From Bacteroidales bacterium (lineage in GTDB: Bacteria; Bacteroidota; Bacteroidia; Bacteroidales; UBA932), in contig JAEEQI010000017.1 in assembly GCA_016285215.1 (NCBI GenBank), forward strand, positions 1 to 20,891: 20,891 nucleotides of DNA, in the 5' to 3' direction. Numbering within the stretch: the stretch's first letter is position 1; every line of letters starts with the position of its first letter. Below the pieces are notes generated by a model, which ran no database searches, was not told where the DNA came from, and worked only from the letters and a program-made list of their open reading frames with translations. Of this stretch, positions 2,764-9,205 are shown piece after piece. The position numbers were made by a program, and so were the translations under genes.

Positions 2764-4181
2764 GAAACAGCAAGTTAGTAACTCTGGAAGAGGCCATCAA
2801 GCGTTCCGGCCTCCAGAATGGAATGACCATCAGCTTCCACCACCATTTCCGTGGCGGAGACAAGGTGGTGAATATGGTGGTGGACAAGCTCGCAGAAATG
2901 GGCTTCAAAGACCTTAAGCTGGCTGCCTCCAGCCTTTCCGACGTACACGCCCCTCTCATTGACCACATCAAGAACGGTGTCATTACCGGTATCTCCACTT
3001 CCGGTCTGCGCGGCGCCCTGGCCGATGCCATCTCTCACGGCCTCCTGAAAGAGCCCGTGGTGTTCCGCTCACACGGCGGACGCGGCAGCGCCATTGCCAA
3101 CGGTGAGCTCAAGATTGACGTAGCCTTCCTGGGTGCCTCTTCGGCCGATGAACTGGGCAACGCCTGCGGCTATTCCCGTTCAGAGAACGCCAAATCCATC
3201 TGCGGCTCGCTGGGTTATGCCCTTCCCGATGCCCGTTACGCCAAGCACGTGGTGGTGATTACCGACGACCTCGTGGAGTATCCCAATATGCCCATGTCCA
3301 TCTCTGCGGCCGATGTGGAATCCGTAGTAGTAGTGGACAGCGTAGGTGACAGCTCCAAGATTGCTGCCGGCGCCATCCGTGACTCCAAGAACCCCCGTGA
3401 CATCCTGCTGGCCAAGCAGGCCGCCAAGGTTATCATCAATTCCGGTCTCTTTGTAGACGGATTCTCCATCCAGACCGGTACCGGCGGTGCCTCCCTGGCT
3501 GCCGTCAAGTACATCCGCGAGGAGATGATCAACCGCGGCATCAAGGCTTCCTTCGCCCTGGGCGGTATCACGGCCCATATGGTCAAGCTCCACGAAGAAG
3601 GCCTCATTGGCAAGCTCATTGACGTCCAGTCCTTCGACAAGGTGGCGGCCGAATCCATCAAGAACGACCCTACCCACCAGGAAGTATCGGCCGTGGAGTA
3701 TGCCTCCGGCCAGCACCTGGGTTCCGCTACCCACGCCCTGGATATCGTTATCCTGAGCGCCCTGGAAGTGGATACGGACTTCAACGTGAACGTACTGGTA
3801 GGTTCTGACGGTATTATCCGTGGCGCCATTGGCGGTCACCAGGATACCGCAGCCGACAGCGCCCTCAGCATCATCGTATGCCCGCTCCTCCGTGGCCGCA
3901 TCCCTTGCGTAGTGCCTCACGTGACCACTCTCATTACCCCCGGCAAGTCCGTGGATGTGGTGGTGACCGAGTACGGCATTGCCGTGAATCCGGCCCGTCC
4001 CGAGATTGCAGAAAAGCTTAAAGCAGCCGGTCTTAATATCGTTGATATCAAGCAGCTGGCCGCCAAGGCTTCTTCCATCATCGGTACGCCCGATCCGCTG
4101 CCTTTCGGTGACAAGGTGGTAGGTATCGTGATGAACCGTGACGGTTCTGTCCTGGACAAAATCCATAACATTGTGGAATAA
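2760..4181 (+). CDS. citF: Citrate lyase alpha subunit (acetyl-ACP:citrate ACP-transferase)
   Basis: The 473-residue alpha subunit exchanges acetyl for citrate on the acyl carrier protein, releasing acetate. Diagnostic segments are LEEAIKRSGLQNGMTISFHHHFRGGDKVVNMV near the N-terminus, SSLSDVHAPL, IQTGTGGASLA, FALGGITAHMV and LVGSDGIIRGAIGGHQDTA, all typical of the CoA-transferase-like CitF fold. It is shorter than the roughly 510-residue enterobacterial protein because it lacks about 35-40 N-terminal residues before LEEAI; the core is complete. The start ATG overlaps the citE stop, and its last base is the A of the citX ATG. No inactivating change is visible. The call is very sure. Confidence 0.96.
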   Translation: MRNSKLVTLEEAIKRSGLQNGMTISFHHHFRGGDKVVNMVVDKLAEMGFKDLKLAASSLSDVHAPLIDHIKNGVITGISTSGLRGALADAISHGLLKEPVVFRSHGGRGSAIANGELKIDVAFLGASSADELGNACGYSRSENAKSICGSLGYALPDARYAKHVVVITDDLVEYPNMPMSISAADVESVVVVDSVGDSSKIAAGAIRDSKNPRDILLAKQAAKVIINSGLFVDGFSIQTGTGGASLAAVKYIREEMINRGIKASFALGGITAHMVKLHEEGLIGKLIDVQSFDKVAAESIKNDPTHQEVSAVEYASGQHLGSATHALDIVILSALEVDTDFNVNVLVGSDGIIRGAIGGHQDTAADSALSIIVCPLLRGRIPCVVPHVTTLITPGKSVDVVVTEYGIAVNPARPEIAEKLKAAGLNIVDIKQLAAKASSIIGTPDPLPFGDKVVGIVMNRDGSVLDKIHNIVE

Positions 4182-4801
4182 TGCCCGTTACACTGGCAGA
4201 GCTCCTGGACAGCCGCGACACGCGGGTGAAACACCAGAAGGACTTGCTTGGAGCCAATCCAGGCAAGTCTCTTCTTTGTTTGACCGTCCAGTTGCCGGGT
4301 CCCGAAAAACGGAATGCTACCTCGTTGAAGATTGCCAAGGCAGGGGTAGAAGCCATCCGGAAGGCCTTTTTGCCAGAGTATGAAGAACTTAAGGATCTGG
4401 ATACCGGTTATGAAGCCTATTTCCTGGTAGATTTGCCGGCCGAAGAGGCCAAAAGACGTACCTGCCAGATAGAAGACTCCCATCCGTTAGGCCGATTAAT
4501 GGATATCGATGTCCTGTATAGTTTCCCTCCGGTTTCAACGGCCCCTCCGGCCCATCCGGTTGTGGAAAATTATTTTTCGCAAAGCTTTGCGAAAAACCAA
4601 TTTTCCACAACCTCCACAGAGCCTACGCACATAGTGGGGCGTGCTGACATTGGATTTCCACCAAGAAGGTGTCTTCTGTGTGGGAATGAGGTGCGGTATT
4701 GTATGAGAGCCAAGACGCACTCCAGAGATGAGTTATTGAGTCGAATTGAACAAATGATTAAGGAATATGAGCTACAAGCCCCTAACCCCCGAACAAATTG
4801 A
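4181..4801 (+). CDS. citX: Apo-citrate lyase phosphoribosyl-dephospho-CoA transferase (holo-ACP synthase) with in-frame insert
   Basis: CitX transfers the triphosphoribosyl-dephospho-CoA prosthetic group onto the serine of CitD. The family signature EDSHPLGRLMDIDVL (residues 98-112), followed by GFPPRRCLLCGNEVRYC (158-174), is clear. Between these blocks enterobacterial CitX has about 16 residues (recalled E. coli sequence), whereas this protein has about 47. The extra 30 or so residues (about 113-151) are encoded by a palindromic, A/T-richer segment unlike the rest of the gene, yet the frame is kept. At 206 residues it exceeds the usual 180 or so. It starts one base into the citF stop and overlaps the DUF4954 gene by 35 bases. 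Whether the enzyme tolerates the insert is unknown, but both conserved blocks are intact. Confidence 0.9.
   Translation: MPVTLAELLDSRDTRVKHQKDLLGANPGKSLLCLTVQLPGPEKRNATSLKIAKAGVEAIRKAFLPEYEELKDLDTGYEAYFLVDLPAEEAKRRTCQIEDSHPLGRLMDIDVLYSFPPVSTAPPAHPVVENYFSQSFAKNQFSTTSTEPTHIVGRADIGFPPRRCLLCGNEVRYCMRAKTHSRDELLSRIEQMIKEYELQAPNPRTN
4558..4612. repeat. 55-nt near-perfect palindrome inside citX
   Basis: The outer arms GGTTGTGGAAAATT (4558-4571) and AATTTTCCACAACC (4599-4612) are exact reverse complements. Inside them TTTTTCGCAAAG and CTTTGCGAAAAA (4573-4596) form an uninterrupted inverted repeat. Only one base (4572) and two bases (4597-4598) are unpaired, so 26 pairs form with almost no loop. The segment is read through in frame in citX, encoding about residues 126-144. 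A hairpin this exact is not expected from coding constraint and suggests an inserted palindromic element. Confidence 0.9.
4607..4639 (+). repeat. Short in-gene repeat, copy 1 (in citX)
   Basis: ACAACCTCCACAG at 4607-4619, then ACGCAC (4625-4630) and AGTGGGG (4633-4639), align in order with 8180-8210 in the citC::citG gene; the copies differ only in short spacers. In citX it encodes about TTSTEPTHIVG directly after the palindrome. Confidence 0.8.
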
Positions 4802-6746
4802 ACTGCTGGTTCAAAGAGGCTGCCGGGCCGATGACTGGTCCTCGGTTTGCACCTCACATCCCGAATCCCTGAACTACGTGCGCAATGTCCGCTTTTCCGG
4901 CACAGTGCAGTTTGGGCGCTTTGAGGAAGTGTTTACCCTTCCCGGAGGCGTCAGGAAGCACTCCGGTCTGCGTAATGCGACTTTGCACAATGTAACCGTA
5001 GGGGACAATTCCCTCATTGAAAACGTAACCAATTACGTGGCCAATTACACCATTGGTGCCCATTCCTATATTGAGAATGTGGACCTGCTGGTGTGCGAAG
5101 GCCCCTGCTGCTTTGGCAATGGCGTGGAAGTGTCGGTCCTCAGCGAGACCGGTGGCCGCGAGGTCAAGATCTACGACCGCCTGAGTGCTCAGATTGCCTA
5201 TGTGCTGGCTATGTACCGGCATCGGCCTGCCCTGATTGAACGCCTGAATGCTCTTATTGAGGAGTATGCCGCCGGGAAAGAGAGCAGCGTGGGCGTCATT
5301 GGGGATCATGTGTCCATCCGGAATACCCGTCATATCAACGGCGTTAACATTGGAGACTACGCCGTTATCAGCGGTGCCAGCCGCCTCAGAAACGGTACCA
5401 TCATCAGCAATGAGATTGCACCCGTAATCATTGCCCACGGCGTCATTGCAGACGATTTCATCATCTGCAGCGGCTCCCACGTGGCCGACAATACCTCCCT
5501 GGAGCGTTGCTTCGTGGGCCAGTGCTGCCGCCTGGGGCACGGTTACAGCGCCTCCGATTCGCTCTTCTTCAGCAATTGCCAGGAAGAGAACGGCGAGGCC
5601 TGCGCCATCTTTGCCGGTCCGTTTACCGTAACGCACCACAAGAGTACGCTCCTCATTGCCGGTATGTTCTCCTTTATGAACGCCGGCAGCGGCTCCAACC
5701 AGAGCAATCATATGTACAAGTTGGGACCTATGCATCAGGGTATCCTGGAGCGCGGTGCCAAGACATCGTCCGACTCTTATATCCTCTGGCCTTCCCGTGT
5801 AGGTGCCTTTTCCCTGGTGATGGGACGCCACGTGACGCACTCGGACACTTCGGCCCTTCCTTTCTCTTATCTGATTGAGCAGCAGAATACTACTTATCTT
5901 GTGCCGGGTGTGAACCTGCGCAGCGTGGGTACGGTCCGTGATGCCCAGAAATGGCCCAAGCGTGACGCCCGTAAGGACCCTGACCGCCTGGACTGCATCA
6001 ACTACAACCTGCTGAGCCCCTACACCATCCAGAAGATGTTCAAGGGCATTCAGCTCCTGAAGAACCTGCAGTATTCGTCCGGCGAACTCTCGGACGTGTA
6101 CTCGTACCATAGCACCAAAATCCGCAACAAATCGCTCCGGAGCGGTATCCATTACTACCAGACGGCCATTGCCAAGTTTCTGGGCAATTCCATCATCAAA
6201 CGCCTGGAGAATATGCCCGCCGGTGCCTCCGACGAGGAAATCCGCCAACTTCTCAAGCCCACCTGCCCCATAGGAAAGGGACAATGGGCCGATGTGGCCG
6301 GCCTCCTGGCTCCGAGGGACTGCCTCACCGAGCTGGTGAACTGCGTGGAGAAGGGTGAAATGAACCTTCACGATTTCTCCGATGCCTTCCATATGCTCCA
6401 CGAGCAGTACTATGATGCAGAGTGGACCTGGGCCTACGACAAGTACGGAGATTTCTTTGGCACTCCGCTGGACAGCATAACCGCCGCCCAGGTGGCCGAC
6501 ATTGTCAAGCGCTGGAAAGAGGCCGTCATCGGCCTGGACAAGGAGCTCTACGAGGATGCCCGCAAGGAGTTCAACCTGGCCTCTATGACCAGTTTCGGGG
6601 CCGATGGAGACCGCGAAACCAAAGAGCGTGACTTCACGGAAGTGCGCGGTGATTTTGAGTCCAACTCCTTTGTGAACGCCGTCCTGGACCACATCCGTAC
6701 CAAGGAAGCCCTGGGCGATGAATTGTTGATCCGCCTGGAAAGATAA
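4767..6746 (+). CDS. DUF4954 family protein, left-handed beta-helix (acyltransferase-like)
   Basis: The 659-residue protein resembles DUF4954, a Bacteroidota family with hexapeptide-type left-handed beta-helix segments like those of UDP-acyl-sugar acyltransferases and nucleotide-sugar enzymes. Hexapeptide-like runs occur near residues 70-110 (VTVGDNSLIENV, YTIGAHSYIENV) and 175-260 (GVIGDHVSIRNT, GVNIGDYAVISGA). FTVTHHKSTLLIAGMFSF and a histidine-rich region follow, and the C-terminal 200 residues look helical. No signal peptide is seen. It begins 35 bases before the citX stop, and its stop overlaps the next ATG as TAATG, so it is embedded in the citrate lyase operon. The substrate is unknown; a sugar-nucleotide or acyl-transfer role is inference from the fold only. 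Confidence 0.85.
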   Translation: MSYKPLTPEQIELLVQRGCRADDWSSVCTSHPESLNYVRNVRFSGTVQFGRFEEVFTLPGGVRKHSGLRNATLHNVTVGDNSLIENVTNYVANYTIGAHSYIENVDLLVCEGPCCFGNGVEVSVLSETGGREVKIYDRLSAQIAYVLAMYRHRPALIERLNALIEEYAAGKESSVGVIGDHVSIRNTRHINGVNIGDYAVISGASRLRNGTIISNEIAPVIIAHGVIADDFIICSGSHVADNTSLERCFVGQCCRLGHGYSASDSLFFSNCQEENGEACAIFAGPFTVTHHKSTLLIAGMFSFMNAGSGSNQSNHMYKLGPMHQGILERGAKTSSDSYILWPSRVGAFSLVMGRHVTHSDTSALPFSYLIEQQNTTYLVPGVNLRSVGTVRDAQKWPKRDARKDPDRLDCINYNLLSPYTIQKMFKGIQLLKNLQYSSGELSDVYSYHSTKIRNKSLRSGIHYYQTAIAKFLGNSIIKRLENMPAGASDEEIRQLLKPTCPIGKGQWADVAGLLAPRDCLTELVNCVEKGEMNLHDFSDAFHMLHEQYYDAEWTWAYDKYGDFFGTPLDSITAAQVADIVKRWKEAVIGLDKELYEDARKEFNLASMTSFGADGDRETKERDFTEVRGDFESNSFVNAVLDHIRTKEALGDELLIRLER

Positions 6747-7471
6747 TGATCCGTTGGTTAATCATACCGCTTGTGCTGTTGCTGGGACACCCGGTCACAG
6801 TGATAACCGATCCGGAAGAGGAAACGTGCACCTATGATGTCCGTTACCTCTATGGCAACCTGAATACCAAGGTGGCCAAGGCTACTTTTACCCTTACCCA
6901 GGACGAATTTGAAGGCCAAGATGCATACAAGGCCGAAATTGGAATCAAGGTCCAGCCCATCTTCCGGCTTTTCATGCACTCCAAATATAAGGTAGAAGAC
7001 TATTTTACCCGCCCGGGTATGAACCCCCTGTATTACTGTACGTCTTCCAACAAGGGAAGCGCCTGGTGCCGTTACTCGGAGGATGAGATCGTTTTCTGGC
7101 GACAATACGGCAAGATGCCCGAGCCCGCCATCTTTCACCATCCCAACGACGGCATCTCCATGGAACTGGTCACATTGCTCTACTATGTGAGAACCCACGA
7201 TTTCAAGGAAGGGGAGCCCTATGAGGTAAGACCGCTCATGGGAGGTCAGCCCCGCGAAGCAACCCTTACCATGGAAGGCATTGAGACGGAAAAGTACCCC
7301 GGTCATTCGGCCCAGATTTTTCATCTGGAGATGCTGGAACGCGGTATCTTGGAAAACGGTAGCGGCAAGGATGTCTGGATCTGGATTGACTCCGACGAGA
7401 GGCGCACGCCCCTGGGTTTGCAGGTGGCTTTGGGCAAGAACGGAATCATGGTCTGCAATCTTATAGAATAG
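6746..7471 (+). CDS. DUF3108 domain protein, probably exported
   Basis: The 241-residue product begins with a hydrophobic segment (IRWLIIPLVLLLGHPVTVI, residues 2-20) that looks like a signal peptide without a lipobox cysteine. The mature part contains CTYDVRYLYGNLNTKVAKATFTL and KVEDYFTRPGMNPLYY, which fit DUF3108, a beta-rich periplasmic domain of unknown function common in Bacteroidota. Its ATG shares a base with the preceding stop codon (TAATG), so it is probably co-translated with DUF4954. It is the last gene before a 105-base gap with a hairpin and candidate promoter ahead of citC::citG. An envelope protein inside a citrate lyase cluster is unusual. The family is likely; the role is unknown. 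Confidence 0.8.
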   Translation: MIRWLIIPLVLLLGHPVTVITDPEEETCTYDVRYLYGNLNTKVAKATFTLTQDEFEGQDAYKAEIGIKVQPIFRLFMHSKYKVEDYFTRPGMNPLYYCTSSNKGSAWCRYSEDEIVFWRQYGKMPEPAIFHHPNDGISMELVTLLYYVRTHDFKEGEPYEVRPLMGGQPREATLTMEGIETEKYPGHSAQIFHLEMLERGILENGSGKDVWIWIDSDERRTPLGLQVALGKNGIMVCNLIE

Positions 7472-7505: not shown

Positions 7506-7525
7506 ATTAGAAATTGTTACCTTCG
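7495..7525 (+). promoter_or_regulatory. Candidate Bacteroidota promoter for citC::citG-acn-icd
   Basis: A -33-like TTG at 7495-7497, 20 bases, then TACCTTCG at 7518-7525, one mismatch from the TAnnTTTG -7 consensus. Transcription would begin near 7530, leaving a leader of about 47 bases. This would allow expression of citC::citG, aconitase and isocitrate dehydrogenase independently of citDEFX. Confidence 0.5.
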
Positions 7526-7539
7526 CGTAATGATTCCCT

Positions 7540-7573
7540 AACAGGCGGAACCGGGAGTATTGGAAAGCCTGTT
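7540..7573 (+). promoter_or_regulatory. Leader hairpin just before the citC::citG start
   Basis: AACAGGC (7540-7546) and GCCTGTT (7567-7573) are exact reverse complements, with 20 bases between them and the right arm ending three bases before the ATG at 7577. The enclosed GGGAG could be an occluded ribosome-binding site. It may modulate initiation, but a single 7-bp arm pair could be chance. Confidence 0.35.
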
Positions 7574-7576
7574 TGG

Positions 7577-9205
7577 ATGATGCAAAGCTATAGTAAGCAC
7601 AACATACAGGAACTGCCTCTAAGCAGTCTGTTCTTCCGAAATAAGGTGGATAACTTCCTCAGAGACAATGGTCTCCGGATGGAAGAACTTGATGTATATT
7701 GTGTCATAGAAAACGAAGCCGGAGACATCTTAGCCGGCGCCGGACTTTCCGCCGATATCATCAAATGCATAGCCGTAACCCCCGAAGCCCGTTCGGAAGG
7801 TTTGGTGGCACCGCTGGTGTCGCATTTGATTTCCATGGCGGCCTCCAAGGGAATCCTGGAGCTCAAGATTTTCACCAAGCCCGAGAACCAGGCCATCTTT
7901 GAAAGCCTGGGCTTCCACGTCCTGGCCCGTGCCCCCAAGGCCATCCTTATGGAAAACGGTCACGGTCTGGAGAGATACTGCCAGTATTTGAAGGGCTTCG
8001 CTAAAGAGGGCCGAAGCGGCGTCATTGTGATGAACGCCAATCCCTTCACCCTGGGCCACCTCTATCTCCTGCAACAAGCCTCCAGGCAGGTAGACCACCT
8101 TTACATCATCCCTGTAAAAGAAGATAGATCCCAGTTCTCTTACAATGAGAGACTGGAAATGATAAGAAAGGCCCTTCCTACAACCTCCACAGCCCGACGC
8201 ACCAGTGGGGAGGGGACGAATGTCTGTGTGTTAGAGGGATCGGATTATCAGATTTCAGCGGCTACTTTTCCTACTTATTTCTTGAAAAACTTATCAGACG
8301 CGGCGGAAACGCAGATGCGTCTGGATCTTGACCTGTACGCCCGGTGGATTGCACCGGCCCTGAATGCTTCCGTGCGGTTTGTGGGATCTGAACCTCTCGA
8401 TCCTCTCACGGCCCGGTATAATGACCTGATGAGAGAGCTTCTGCCTGAGGTCGTTGAAGTACCCAGATATGCTGAGGTCTCAGCATCTGAAGTGCGGAAG
8501 GCACTGGAGGAGGGGAGTTTCAGGAAGGCTTCGGCCCTGTGTCCGGAGAGTACCTGGCCGTATCTGCTGGCAGAACTGGCGCAGAGGGCTCTGAAGCTGG
8601 AGCTGGATACGCCCGGTAAACCGGGACTGGTGGGCCCTGATTCGTGCGGAGCGCACAAGGATATGGATTACGGCACTATGCTCAAGGGAATTGCTGCCAT
8701 TCGGCCCTTCTTCCCCAAGATGGTGCTGGCGTCGTCGGCCCTGGAACTTCGGGATTTGGGCATTGAGGCCGAAAAGGCTATGCTGGCTGCCACTGGCGGG
8801 GTCAATACCCACCGGGGTGCCATTTTCTGTATGGGCCTGGCTCTGAATGCCTGTGGAGATGGAGGCCGGATGACGGAACTGGCAGAGCAGATTTGCGGCG
8901 ACAATCACTCCAGAGGTGCCCGTACAATAGCCCTGGATGGCTATAAACTGCTCTTTGAGGACTGGCTGCCGTATTATGCCTCCGGCGCCGGAGAGCTCAA
9001 GACGCTGCTGCGCATTATGAGCACGCTGGACGATACCTGCGTGATCAAGAGGGCAGGGGCCGAAAGGGCCCAGCAGGTGAAGCAGGAGGCGTTGACTGTA
9101 GATAGCAAAGAATTATGTGACCGCTATGCGGCGGAGGGTATTTCTCCCGGCGGAGCGGCCGATATGCTGGCATTGACAATATTTATTCACTCAATCATAA
9201 TATGA
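7577..9205 (+). CDS. citC: Fused [citrate lyase] ligase (CitC) and triphosphoribosyl-dephospho-CoA synthase (CitG)
   Basis: The 542-residue protein joins two citrate lyase maturation enzymes. Residues 1-130 form a GNAT-like domain and 145-330 a nucleotidyltransferase with VIVMNANPFTLGHLYLL (149-165), EDRSQFSYNERLEMI (182-196), GSDYQISAATFPTYF and RFVGSEP; this is CitC, which acetylates the ACP prosthetic group using ATP and acetate. Residues 335-542 carry the CitG signatures PGKPGLV, GAHKDMDYG (358-366), GGVNTHRGAIF (407-417) and GISPGGAADMLALT (521-534); CitG makes triphosphoribosyl-dephospho-CoA from ATP and dephospho-CoA. The CitG half is compact, about 210 residues against 290. The frame opens at a TTG at 7514, but the ATG pair at 7577/7580 follows the promoter and leader. 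Residues 202-215 are an extra loop encoded by a repeat shared with citX. The stop overlaps the aconitase ATG. Confidence 0.93.
   Translation: MMQSYSKHNIQELPLSSLFFRNKVDNFLRDNGLRMEELDVYCVIENEAGDILAGAGLSADIIKCIAVTPEARSEGLVAPLVSHLISMAASKGILELKIFTKPENQAIFESLGFHVLARAPKAILMENGHGLERYCQYLKGFAKEGRSGVIVMNANPFTLGHLYLLQQASRQVDHLYIIPVKEDRSQFSYNERLEMIRKALPTTSTARRTSGEGTNVCVLEGSDYQISAATFPTYFLKNLSDAAETQMRLDLDLYARWIAPALNASVRFVGSEPLDPLTARYNDLMRELLPEVVEVPRYAEVSASEVRKALEEGSFRKASALCPESTWPYLLAELAQRALKLELDTPGKPGLVGPDSCGAHKDMDYGTMLKGIAAIRPFFPKMVLASSALELRDLGIEAEKAMLAATGGVNTHRGAIFCMGLALNACGDGGRMTELAEQICGDNHSRGARTIALDGYKLLFEDWLPYYASGAGELKTLLRIMSTLDDTCVIKRAGAERAQQVKQEALTVDSKELCDRYAAEGISPGGAADMLALTIFIHSIII
8180..8210 (+). 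repeat. Short in-gene repeat, copy 2 (in citC part)
   Basis: ACAACCTCCACAG (8180-8192), ACGCAC (8197-8202) and AGTGGGG (8204-8210) match the citX copy at 4607-4639 in the same order and orientation. It is read in frame as TTSTARRTSG between the helix ending in RLEMIRKAL and the strand before GSDYQIS. There recalled E. coli CitC has about 10 fewer residues, close to the 31-bp repeat length. Confidence 0.8.

Follow-up and report, generated by a model that had tools for sequence, protein, structure and literature searches.

A putative lineage-restricted family of short palindromic elements read in frame within citX and other genes of rumen Bacteroidales

Short palindromic repeats lying within protein-coding genes have been described from several groups of microorganisms. 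Rickettsia palindromic elements (RPEs), which are 105–146 bp long (PMC2229807), are palindromes fused in frame into unrelated and often conserved proteins, with several families per lineage; 19 intragenic cases have been reported, one of which, in gmk, was shown to be translated and active (PMC10969869, PMC2229807, PMC2996958). The literature cites RPE-like elements from Wolbachia and Methanocaldococcus jannaschii as well (PMC2996958), so the Rickettsia precedent named in an earlier note on the present DNA is correct, but the phenomenon is known more widely. REPs form hairpins and composites, with some copies in genes, including those of Opitutus terrae and R. conorii (PMC3733652). The bulge of the Escherichia coli REP is needed by TnpA-REP (PMC8266576), and the Bacteroidetes are recorded as having both CGTC-type REPs and structurally atypical TnpA-REP subclasses (PMC3733652, PMC6006769). 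Among MITEs, intragenic copies have been reported for ERIC/RU-1, the 107 bp Correia element, QMITE1 and BOX, several of them fused in frame (PMC10969869, PMC2229807), and the BrickBuilt MITEs of Porphyromonas gingivalis, a member of the Bacteroidales, indicate that such elements do occur in this order (PMC5771137).

Translated palindromes were known before from conserved genes of Rickettsia and a few other microbes; here, we describe a family from gut Bacteroidales. The stretch of DNA analysed (the window) comprises 20,891 nucleotides from a Bacteroidales bacterium and includes a citX gene that carries a 55 nt palindrome within its reading frame. We consider it quite probable that this palindrome belongs to a lineage-restricted family of short, non-autonomous palindromic elements of rumen Bacteroidales that has spread in frame, a confidence that covers the element and its in-frame spread, not the enzyme that would mobilize it. 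No earlier description of the element, or of a Bacteroidales equivalent, was found in the open-access literature searched, and the earlier note named none.

The palindromic segment of citX

The citX open reading frame (ORF) is matched by the Pfam CitX profile in two stretches, the better of which covers residues 3–113 (E 3e-42). The features of the gene that matter here are as follows.

4181..4801, + strand: citX ORF carrying the in-frame element (Pfam PF03802, E 3e-42; TIGR03124)
4514..4636, + strand: extra coding segment, residues 112–152 (120 listed homologs; short-site DNA of L006 and L012; low pLDDT mid-segment)
4525..4536, + strand: CCCTCCGGTTTC, probable remains of the left arm of another unit, since decayed, as we infer
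4558..4612, + strand: hairpin core, 55 nt, read within PVVENYFSQSFAKNQFSTT (exact arms; covariance model R1)
4558..4571, + strand: outer left arm GGTTGTGGAAAATT (exact complementarity)
4572..4572, + strand: asymmetric bulge, A side, facing CC at 4597–4598 (A/CC in 62 of 63 copies, three genomes)
4573..4596, + strand: inner 12 bp perfect inverted repeat TTTTTCGCAAAG/CTTTGCGAAAAA (arms 4573–4584 and 4585–4596)
4597..4598, + strand: asymmetric bulge, CC side (A/CC in the same 62 of 63 copies; C in 48 of 49 and 49 of 49 copies)
4599..4612, + strand: outer right arm AATTTTCCACAACC (exact complementarity)
4613..4637, + strand: right tail TCCACAGAGCCTACGCACATAG..., partly common to other copies (moderately conserved columns, 49 copies)

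Between the conserved blocks RLMDIDV and RRCLLC lie 50 residues in the window protein, against 12 in the shortest of the homologs listed (the best 120 of 1417); the extra residues seen in the earlier note are thus present, but their number is about 38 rather than about 30. The 55 nt palindrome that it described, with exact 14 bp outer and 12 bp inner arms, is found at 4558–4612, the outer arms (4558–4571 and 4599–4612) being exact complements over 14 bp, and its statement that the palindrome is read without a stop holds as well, the frame being open across the hairpin and both conserved blocks being present. Exact 12 bp arms separated by a loop of at most 40 nt begin at four positions in the window, all within the citX element, against a mean of 0.13 and a maximum of 3 under the same criterion in 60 Markov-1 simulations. 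The fold energy of the hairpin corresponds to z = −5.26, a value as good being reached in none of 200 shuffles. Likeness to other copies extends rightward past the hairpin to about 4637, and the window copy scores 96 bits (E 8e-22) with R1, of which it is one of the 49 building copies. To the left, the probable remnant at 4525–4536 resembles the left arm of L220, and in some CitX homologs PPVS stands directly before NYFS. Searches for tRNA and tmRNA genes found none, and an Rfam search returned no family at gathering scores.

Full units of the element, defined in the protein as [NKI][YN]F[SL]x4[KR][NKS][QHR][FI], vary in number among CitX homologs: among the best 120 of 1417, there are none in 45, one in 61, two in 12 and three in 2, so that 75 of the 120 carry at least one. 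The median segment length for these four classes is 25, 45, 73.5 and 88 residues, respectively, in a listing of 120 that favours window-like proteins and whose no-unit class contains partial units and other repeats. Near-identical CitX proteins differ by whole or partial units (e.g. P0001/P0002 and P0022/P0046), and in the solved CitX structure 7dcm three residues separate the two matched blocks. These three residues, and the 12 found in some of the 120 listed homologs, bear out the view of the earlier note that the segment is an insertion rather than a conserved part of CitX.

The window CitX, the sole protein modelled, was predicted with AlphaFold2 from 23 sequences, and the model matches 7dcm with a Foldseek probability of 1.00 (TM 0.70 by query, rmsd 3.2). 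Its mean pLDDT is 79, with residues 117–134 and 139–146 below 50. Since low confidence in these residues, within the span of 113–151 singled out by the earlier note as a possible loop, accompanies an otherwise CitX-like fold, the insert would be expected to be a disordered loop, and in this model the low-confidence stretch probably is one. Other inserts occupy the same CitX site in P0087, P0094, P0107, P0112, P0119 and the citX of L008. Most of them contain EKGMEICSASAKNYADATAEHTS, which looks like one more repeat family, and in P0087 the element described here is read in a different frame.

Copies in the citrate operon, in unrelated genes and across genomes

A DUF4954/DUF6819 gene and a DUF3108 gene (4767–7471) lie between citX and citC in the window, and the citrate lyase ligase C-terminal domain is joined to a CitG domain in a single ORF (7514–9205). 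Two features of this ORF concern us.

7514..9205, + strand: citC-citG fusion ORF, with elements at several loop sites in relatives (Pfam/TIGR; motif in 11 of 61 ORFs; alignment of 23)
8177..8203, + strand: decayed element in citC, hairpin absent, ACAACCTCCACAGCCCGACGCACC left, in frame as TTSTARRT (DNA comparison with L002, in which both arms are present)

In a count that misses antisense copies, such as that in the citX of L004, the motif occurs in 6 of 66 citX ORFs (the window counted) and 11 of 61 citC ORFs, and in none of the 62 citF, 20 DUF4954 and 12 DUF3108 ORFs compared. The 23-row alignment of citC contains both empty and filled sites, loops being short in some relatives (e.g. L009, L012 and L025) and filled in other rows, some of them by other repeats (CHSERSEES, VMPGPDRASA and EILRFAQND). 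At the C-terminal site of citC, L016 and L024 have the hairpin, and L023 is 57 nt shorter with the flanking parts of the element kept. In the citC of L002, the arms alone are left, with 36 nt fewer than a full hairpin, and the window citC lacks a further 12 nt relative to L002. Read in the direction of loss, these comparisons suggest that hairpins disappear in multiples of three bases. A HAD-domain gene has the element in G006 and none in G008, and at its second site both genomes have a copy, sense in G006 and antisense in G008. No target-site duplication or parent insertion sequence was noticed in the citC alignment or in the site DNA comparison.

Outside the operon, a Pfam scan of 20 ORFs located copies within domains, or between them, in a range of unrelated proteins. 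A copy lies inside the NUDIX domain of MutY in L194 and L076 and just before the matched part, with identical flanking residues, in L218; in RibF (L208 and L222), it falls between the two domains. Further carriers are an HI0933-like flavoprotein (L218 and L249), SpoU methylase, beta-ketoacyl synthase (KAS), UDP-sugar dehydrogenase, RmlD, alanine-racemase N, NTP-transferase and HAD proteins, and in L225 (1697–2899) an antisense copy is read through within a beta-lactamase-family (PF00144) domain. The copy in RnpA (L235) precedes the matched stretch, which begins at profile position 40, and that in ATP synthase a (L245) precedes the domain; the copy-bearing ORF of L228 has no Pfam match, and that of L260, named by reading its sequence, is an apparent methionine synthase. 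Copies are found on either strand and in other frames, antisense included, and NQFSTTSTEPTHIVGR is an example of the peptides that translation of the element would give.

In G001, 19 of 24 copies fall within open frames no shorter than 200 codons, against a background of 0.83 for random stretches; there is, thus, no intragenic enrichment in this genome, and the family does not avoid its genes. The corresponding figures are 6 of 22 fetched copies in G236 (background 0.89) and 9 of 17 in G354 (background 0.84), more matches having been reported in both genomes than copies fetched. The copies of G236 lie mainly outside long frames, often adjoining other repeats. The NYFS frame is the one used by 25 of the 34 in-frame copies of these three genomes.

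A contig scan yielded 69 loci, many of them of rumen origin, and the nearest carry Bacteroidales or Bacteroidia in their titles. The pattern AATTATTTTTN{10,16}AAAAACCAATTTT had 35 occurrences, spread over 9 of 10 relative genomes, and the reversed-pattern control had none. From 97 fuzzy matches, 49 copies were picked by hand (48 reverse-complement, shifted or chance matches being discarded) and aligned as A2, from which the covariance model R1 was built and applied with a cut-off of E 0.001. Matches were found in 22 of 151 genomes sampled from the genus of G001 (G001 included), in 2 of 199 from its family (G001 and another at E 1.1e-4), in 3 of 393 from its order (G001 and two marginal ones with E values between 1e-4 and 2e-4) and in 17 of 36 genomes selected from CitX relatives, with 25, 19, 9 and 107 candidates scored per genome, respectively, and hence with differing sensitivity. 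As far as sampled, the family appears concentrated in one genus, its absence elsewhere being loosely bounded because of the unequal sensitivity of the genus, family and order draws. We presume that this genus may be the rumen RC9 group (Cryptobacteroides). Per-genome totals of R1 matches reach 40 (G236) and count some palindromes on both strands, and plasmid and phage records gave no blastn match to 4536–4644 at E 0.01. Other copies, which the earlier note anticipated, were counted in relatives, where they are many and often in frame in unrelated genes. Since the segment is unconserved across CitX and many copies lie elsewhere, the interpretation offered there, tolerance together with a mobile, protein-coding repeat family, is supported as regards a dispersed in-frame family, for which active mobility may be presumed.

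Other repeats share these sites. A second one, TGTCATTCTGAGCGAAGCGAAGAATCT, read as CHSERSEES (EILRFAQND on the opposite strand), lies in frame in CitX, CitC and other proteins and shares the loops of the element in citC site 1 of L018 and L031, in L192 and L209, and in P0082, P0084 and P0116. A third, palindromic repeat, GTCATGCCCGRCCCCGAYCGGGCATCTGC, read as VMPGPDRASA, stands directly upstream of element copies in several genomes and forms composites with them (L234, L235, L239, L240, L241, L242 and L248); labels of this kind were coined in this analysis.

Conservation of the hairpin and the means of spread

The hairpin, and not the peptide, appears to be what is conserved, since the stem pairs covary while the A/CC bulge stays. 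On A2, 92.5% of the cells of the 24-pair stem are paired; 17 of the 24 pairs have been altered on both sides in one sequence or more, 5 are invariant and 2 depart by unpaired cells only. Controls that are supportive rather than probabilities, the rows of A2 being related and the structure derived from the same rows, give a whole-structure covariation score of 0.361, compared with 0.153 for shuffles (none of 500 attaining the observed value) and 0.08–0.13 with slid partners, and 82.6% pairing, against 37–55% in slid versions; the number of further pair types (69 versus 66.0, reached by 102 of 500 shuffles) gives no separation. Two mid-stem pairs, followed in 126 distinct copies collected with a wider regular expression, read AT/AT in 87, TT/AA in 28 and AA/TT in 9 and are broken in 2, and the peptide read from these copies shifts in step (N..NQF, I..NQI and K..NHF). 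The outermost core pair is an A–C mismatch in 18 of the 126. Among the 63 copies taken from G001, G236 and G354, 62 retain the bulge, an apparent constancy favoured by collecting patterns and a model that contained the core and the bulge. Across four versions of the element, 3, 3, 5 and 4 of the six frames are open, which rules out an expected openness of five of six; the NYFS frame is open in all four.

In the explanation that we propose, the conserved unit would be a foldable hairpin of about 55 nt, composed of outer arms of about 8 bp, AAAATT/AATTTT, the asymmetric A/CC bulge and an inner stem, with a short right tail and, in some copies, an outer 9 bp repeat bringing the whole to about 100 bp. 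Copies would reach new sites, genes among them; as to the means, we tentatively favour a trans-acting HUH enzyme of the TnpA-REP/RAYT type that would recognize the single-stranded hairpin and copy it. An insertion into a tolerant loop or linker would survive and be translated if it left the frame intact, helped by the open frame NYFS..KNQF, and the host proteins would presumably retain their function. Copies would accumulate at tolerant sites and decay there as the hairpin is lost by multiples of three bases.

Movement by an HUH enzyme is a leading guess, not a finding, and we hold it tentatively, since 20 Y1 loci are free of copies, the excess of RAYTs is uncorrected for kinship and G236 is without a RAYT at E 1e-40. 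Y1_Tnp genes occur in all ten of the first genomes, and, with a cut-off of E 0.001, PF01797 (Y1_Tnp) is matched in 13 of 14 genomes that bear the element and in 12 of 18 that do not, so that having the gene does not by itself set the two groups apart. Within the genus, 17 of 22 genomes with the element, as opposed to 53 of 129 without it, have RAYT homologs at E 1e-40 (Fisher p 0.002, uncorrected for phylogeny or genome completeness). At this threshold, G236, the richest genome, has no RAYT relative, and G322 has element matches and no PF01797 match at E 0.001. R1 gave 0 matches in 20 of the 33 Y1_Tnp places. Four inspected Y1 loci are flanked by other repeats, one of which, in G001, contains GTAG. 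Among 15 further Y1 loci, partly chosen for an element on the same contig, seven have copies, one about 230 bp upstream of the Y1 ORF (L259) and the other six further away, in or by neighbouring genes. No mobilizing enzyme was tied to the element among the Y1 loci examined.

The nearness of RAYTs to copies in G006 and G008 was set aside as evidence, as these RAYTs are 88% identical beside the same HAD gene and represent one conserved neighbourhood. A RAYT-like HUH gene (about 295–334 aa) lies near a HAD-domain gene in L233 (633–1520), L231 (4193–5080), L262, L263 and L264, the ORFs being listed for two genomes and the gene recognized by peptides in three more; the N-terminal part of this HAD neighbour resembles uracil-DNA glycosylase by reading, without a Pfam match. 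Separately, the Y1_Tnp genes of L101 (1–2200), L103 (533–2422), L105 and L106 have their own repeats nearby (GCGGTAGATGGGACAC.., ATAGTCCTCGTTC.. and CCTGCTTGTGCAC..), which are candidate REP families.

We judge it unlikely that the element is instead a MITE whose outer inverted repeats (GGCATCTGC...GCAGATGCC) are the substrate of a DDE-type transposase that moves it, the hairpin being of secondary importance. Outer 9 bp terminal repeats do occur in copies of G006, G008, G009, G345, G349, G355 and G358, and that of L016 shows a compensatory change (GCATTTGC..GCAAATGC). On A2, however, the outer helix is paired in 56% of cells, against 92.5% for the hairpin; the outer repeat is unclear in the copies of G001 and G236 and in the window copy and partly belongs to an adjoining, different repeat (GTCATGCCCG..CGGGCATCTGC), and no target duplication was noticed in the citC site comparisons.

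Neutral replication errors, by which palindromes would arise, stay matched through template switching and spread locally by recombination with no transposition, are improbable as a full account. Template switching at quasi-palindromes has been proposed to restore arm complementarity (PMC6649704), and the arrays and partial units of CitX homologs resemble recombination products; yet template switching should erase the A/CC bulge, which is retained, so that recognition of a folded strand seems the better reading, and the same core recurs in more than ten unrelated gene families across several genomes. The strong, covarying and RNA-foldable stem would also suit a functional RNA (attenuator, mRNA stability or termination element) regulating the citrate-lyase operon, but this is most improbable for a hairpin that has no Rfam match at gathering scores, is missing from most orthologs (6 of 66 citX and 11 of 61 citC ORFs carry the motif) and occurs in unrelated genes on either strand. 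An ordinary CitX linker, palindromic by chance in a segment of variable length, is refuted by the copies in other genes, the same DNA recurring in many of them in other frames and antisense with peptide residues that change jointly as stem pairing demands.

A dispersed family of palindromic elements, inserted in frame, is thus the reading that we prefer. A wider possibility, to which we would give somewhat less than an even chance, is that the rumen Bacteroidales genus runs a standing process of protein-loop insertion, in which the element and the CHSERSEES and VMPGPDRASA repeats keep entering shared, tolerant loops of housekeeping enzymes, in frame and in either orientation, where they expand, recombine and are trimmed by threes. 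If so, conserved enzymes would bear fast-changing disordered segments dictated by DNA hairpin pairing, not by protein selection. Empty sites, together with graded unit numbers and products of decay within one protein family, amount to a natural dataset on selfish DNA adding protein segments, and because stem pairing makes amino-acid pairs change together, selection at the DNA level can be tested against selection at the protein level. Coevolution methods may misread such stem-driven residue pairs as protein contacts.

Comparison with described palindromic repeats

The element resembles MITEs in being non-autonomous and dispersed with in-frame copies, the likeness to BrickBuilt being one of description, but it has terminal repeats in a subset of copies only. 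With the REP/RAYT system, it shares a hairpin with a bulge, composites, some intragenic copies and host genomes in which HUH Y1 genes are frequent. Unlike REPs, it shows no invariant GTAG or CGTC tag beside its copies (49 aligned copies, by eye), does not flank the searched Y1 genes, save for the L259 copy, and in G001 lies mostly within long open frames. With no tag seen and no cognate gene established, we do not file it as a REP.

Like RPEs, the element is palindromic, forms a hairpin and lies in frame within genes of more than ten unrelated families. The differences are that it belongs to another phylum, being found in Bacteroidales or Bacteroidia and not in Rickettsia; that its hairpin measures 55 nt and the whole approaches the RPE length, at about 100 bp, only where the outer repeat is present; that its divergent arms covary around a fixed A/CC bulge; and that up to three units occupy a site, at sites common to other repeat families. 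The element would, therefore, seem to work like an RPE without being filed as one, since its host differs and the two are likened by description rather than by sequence comparison.
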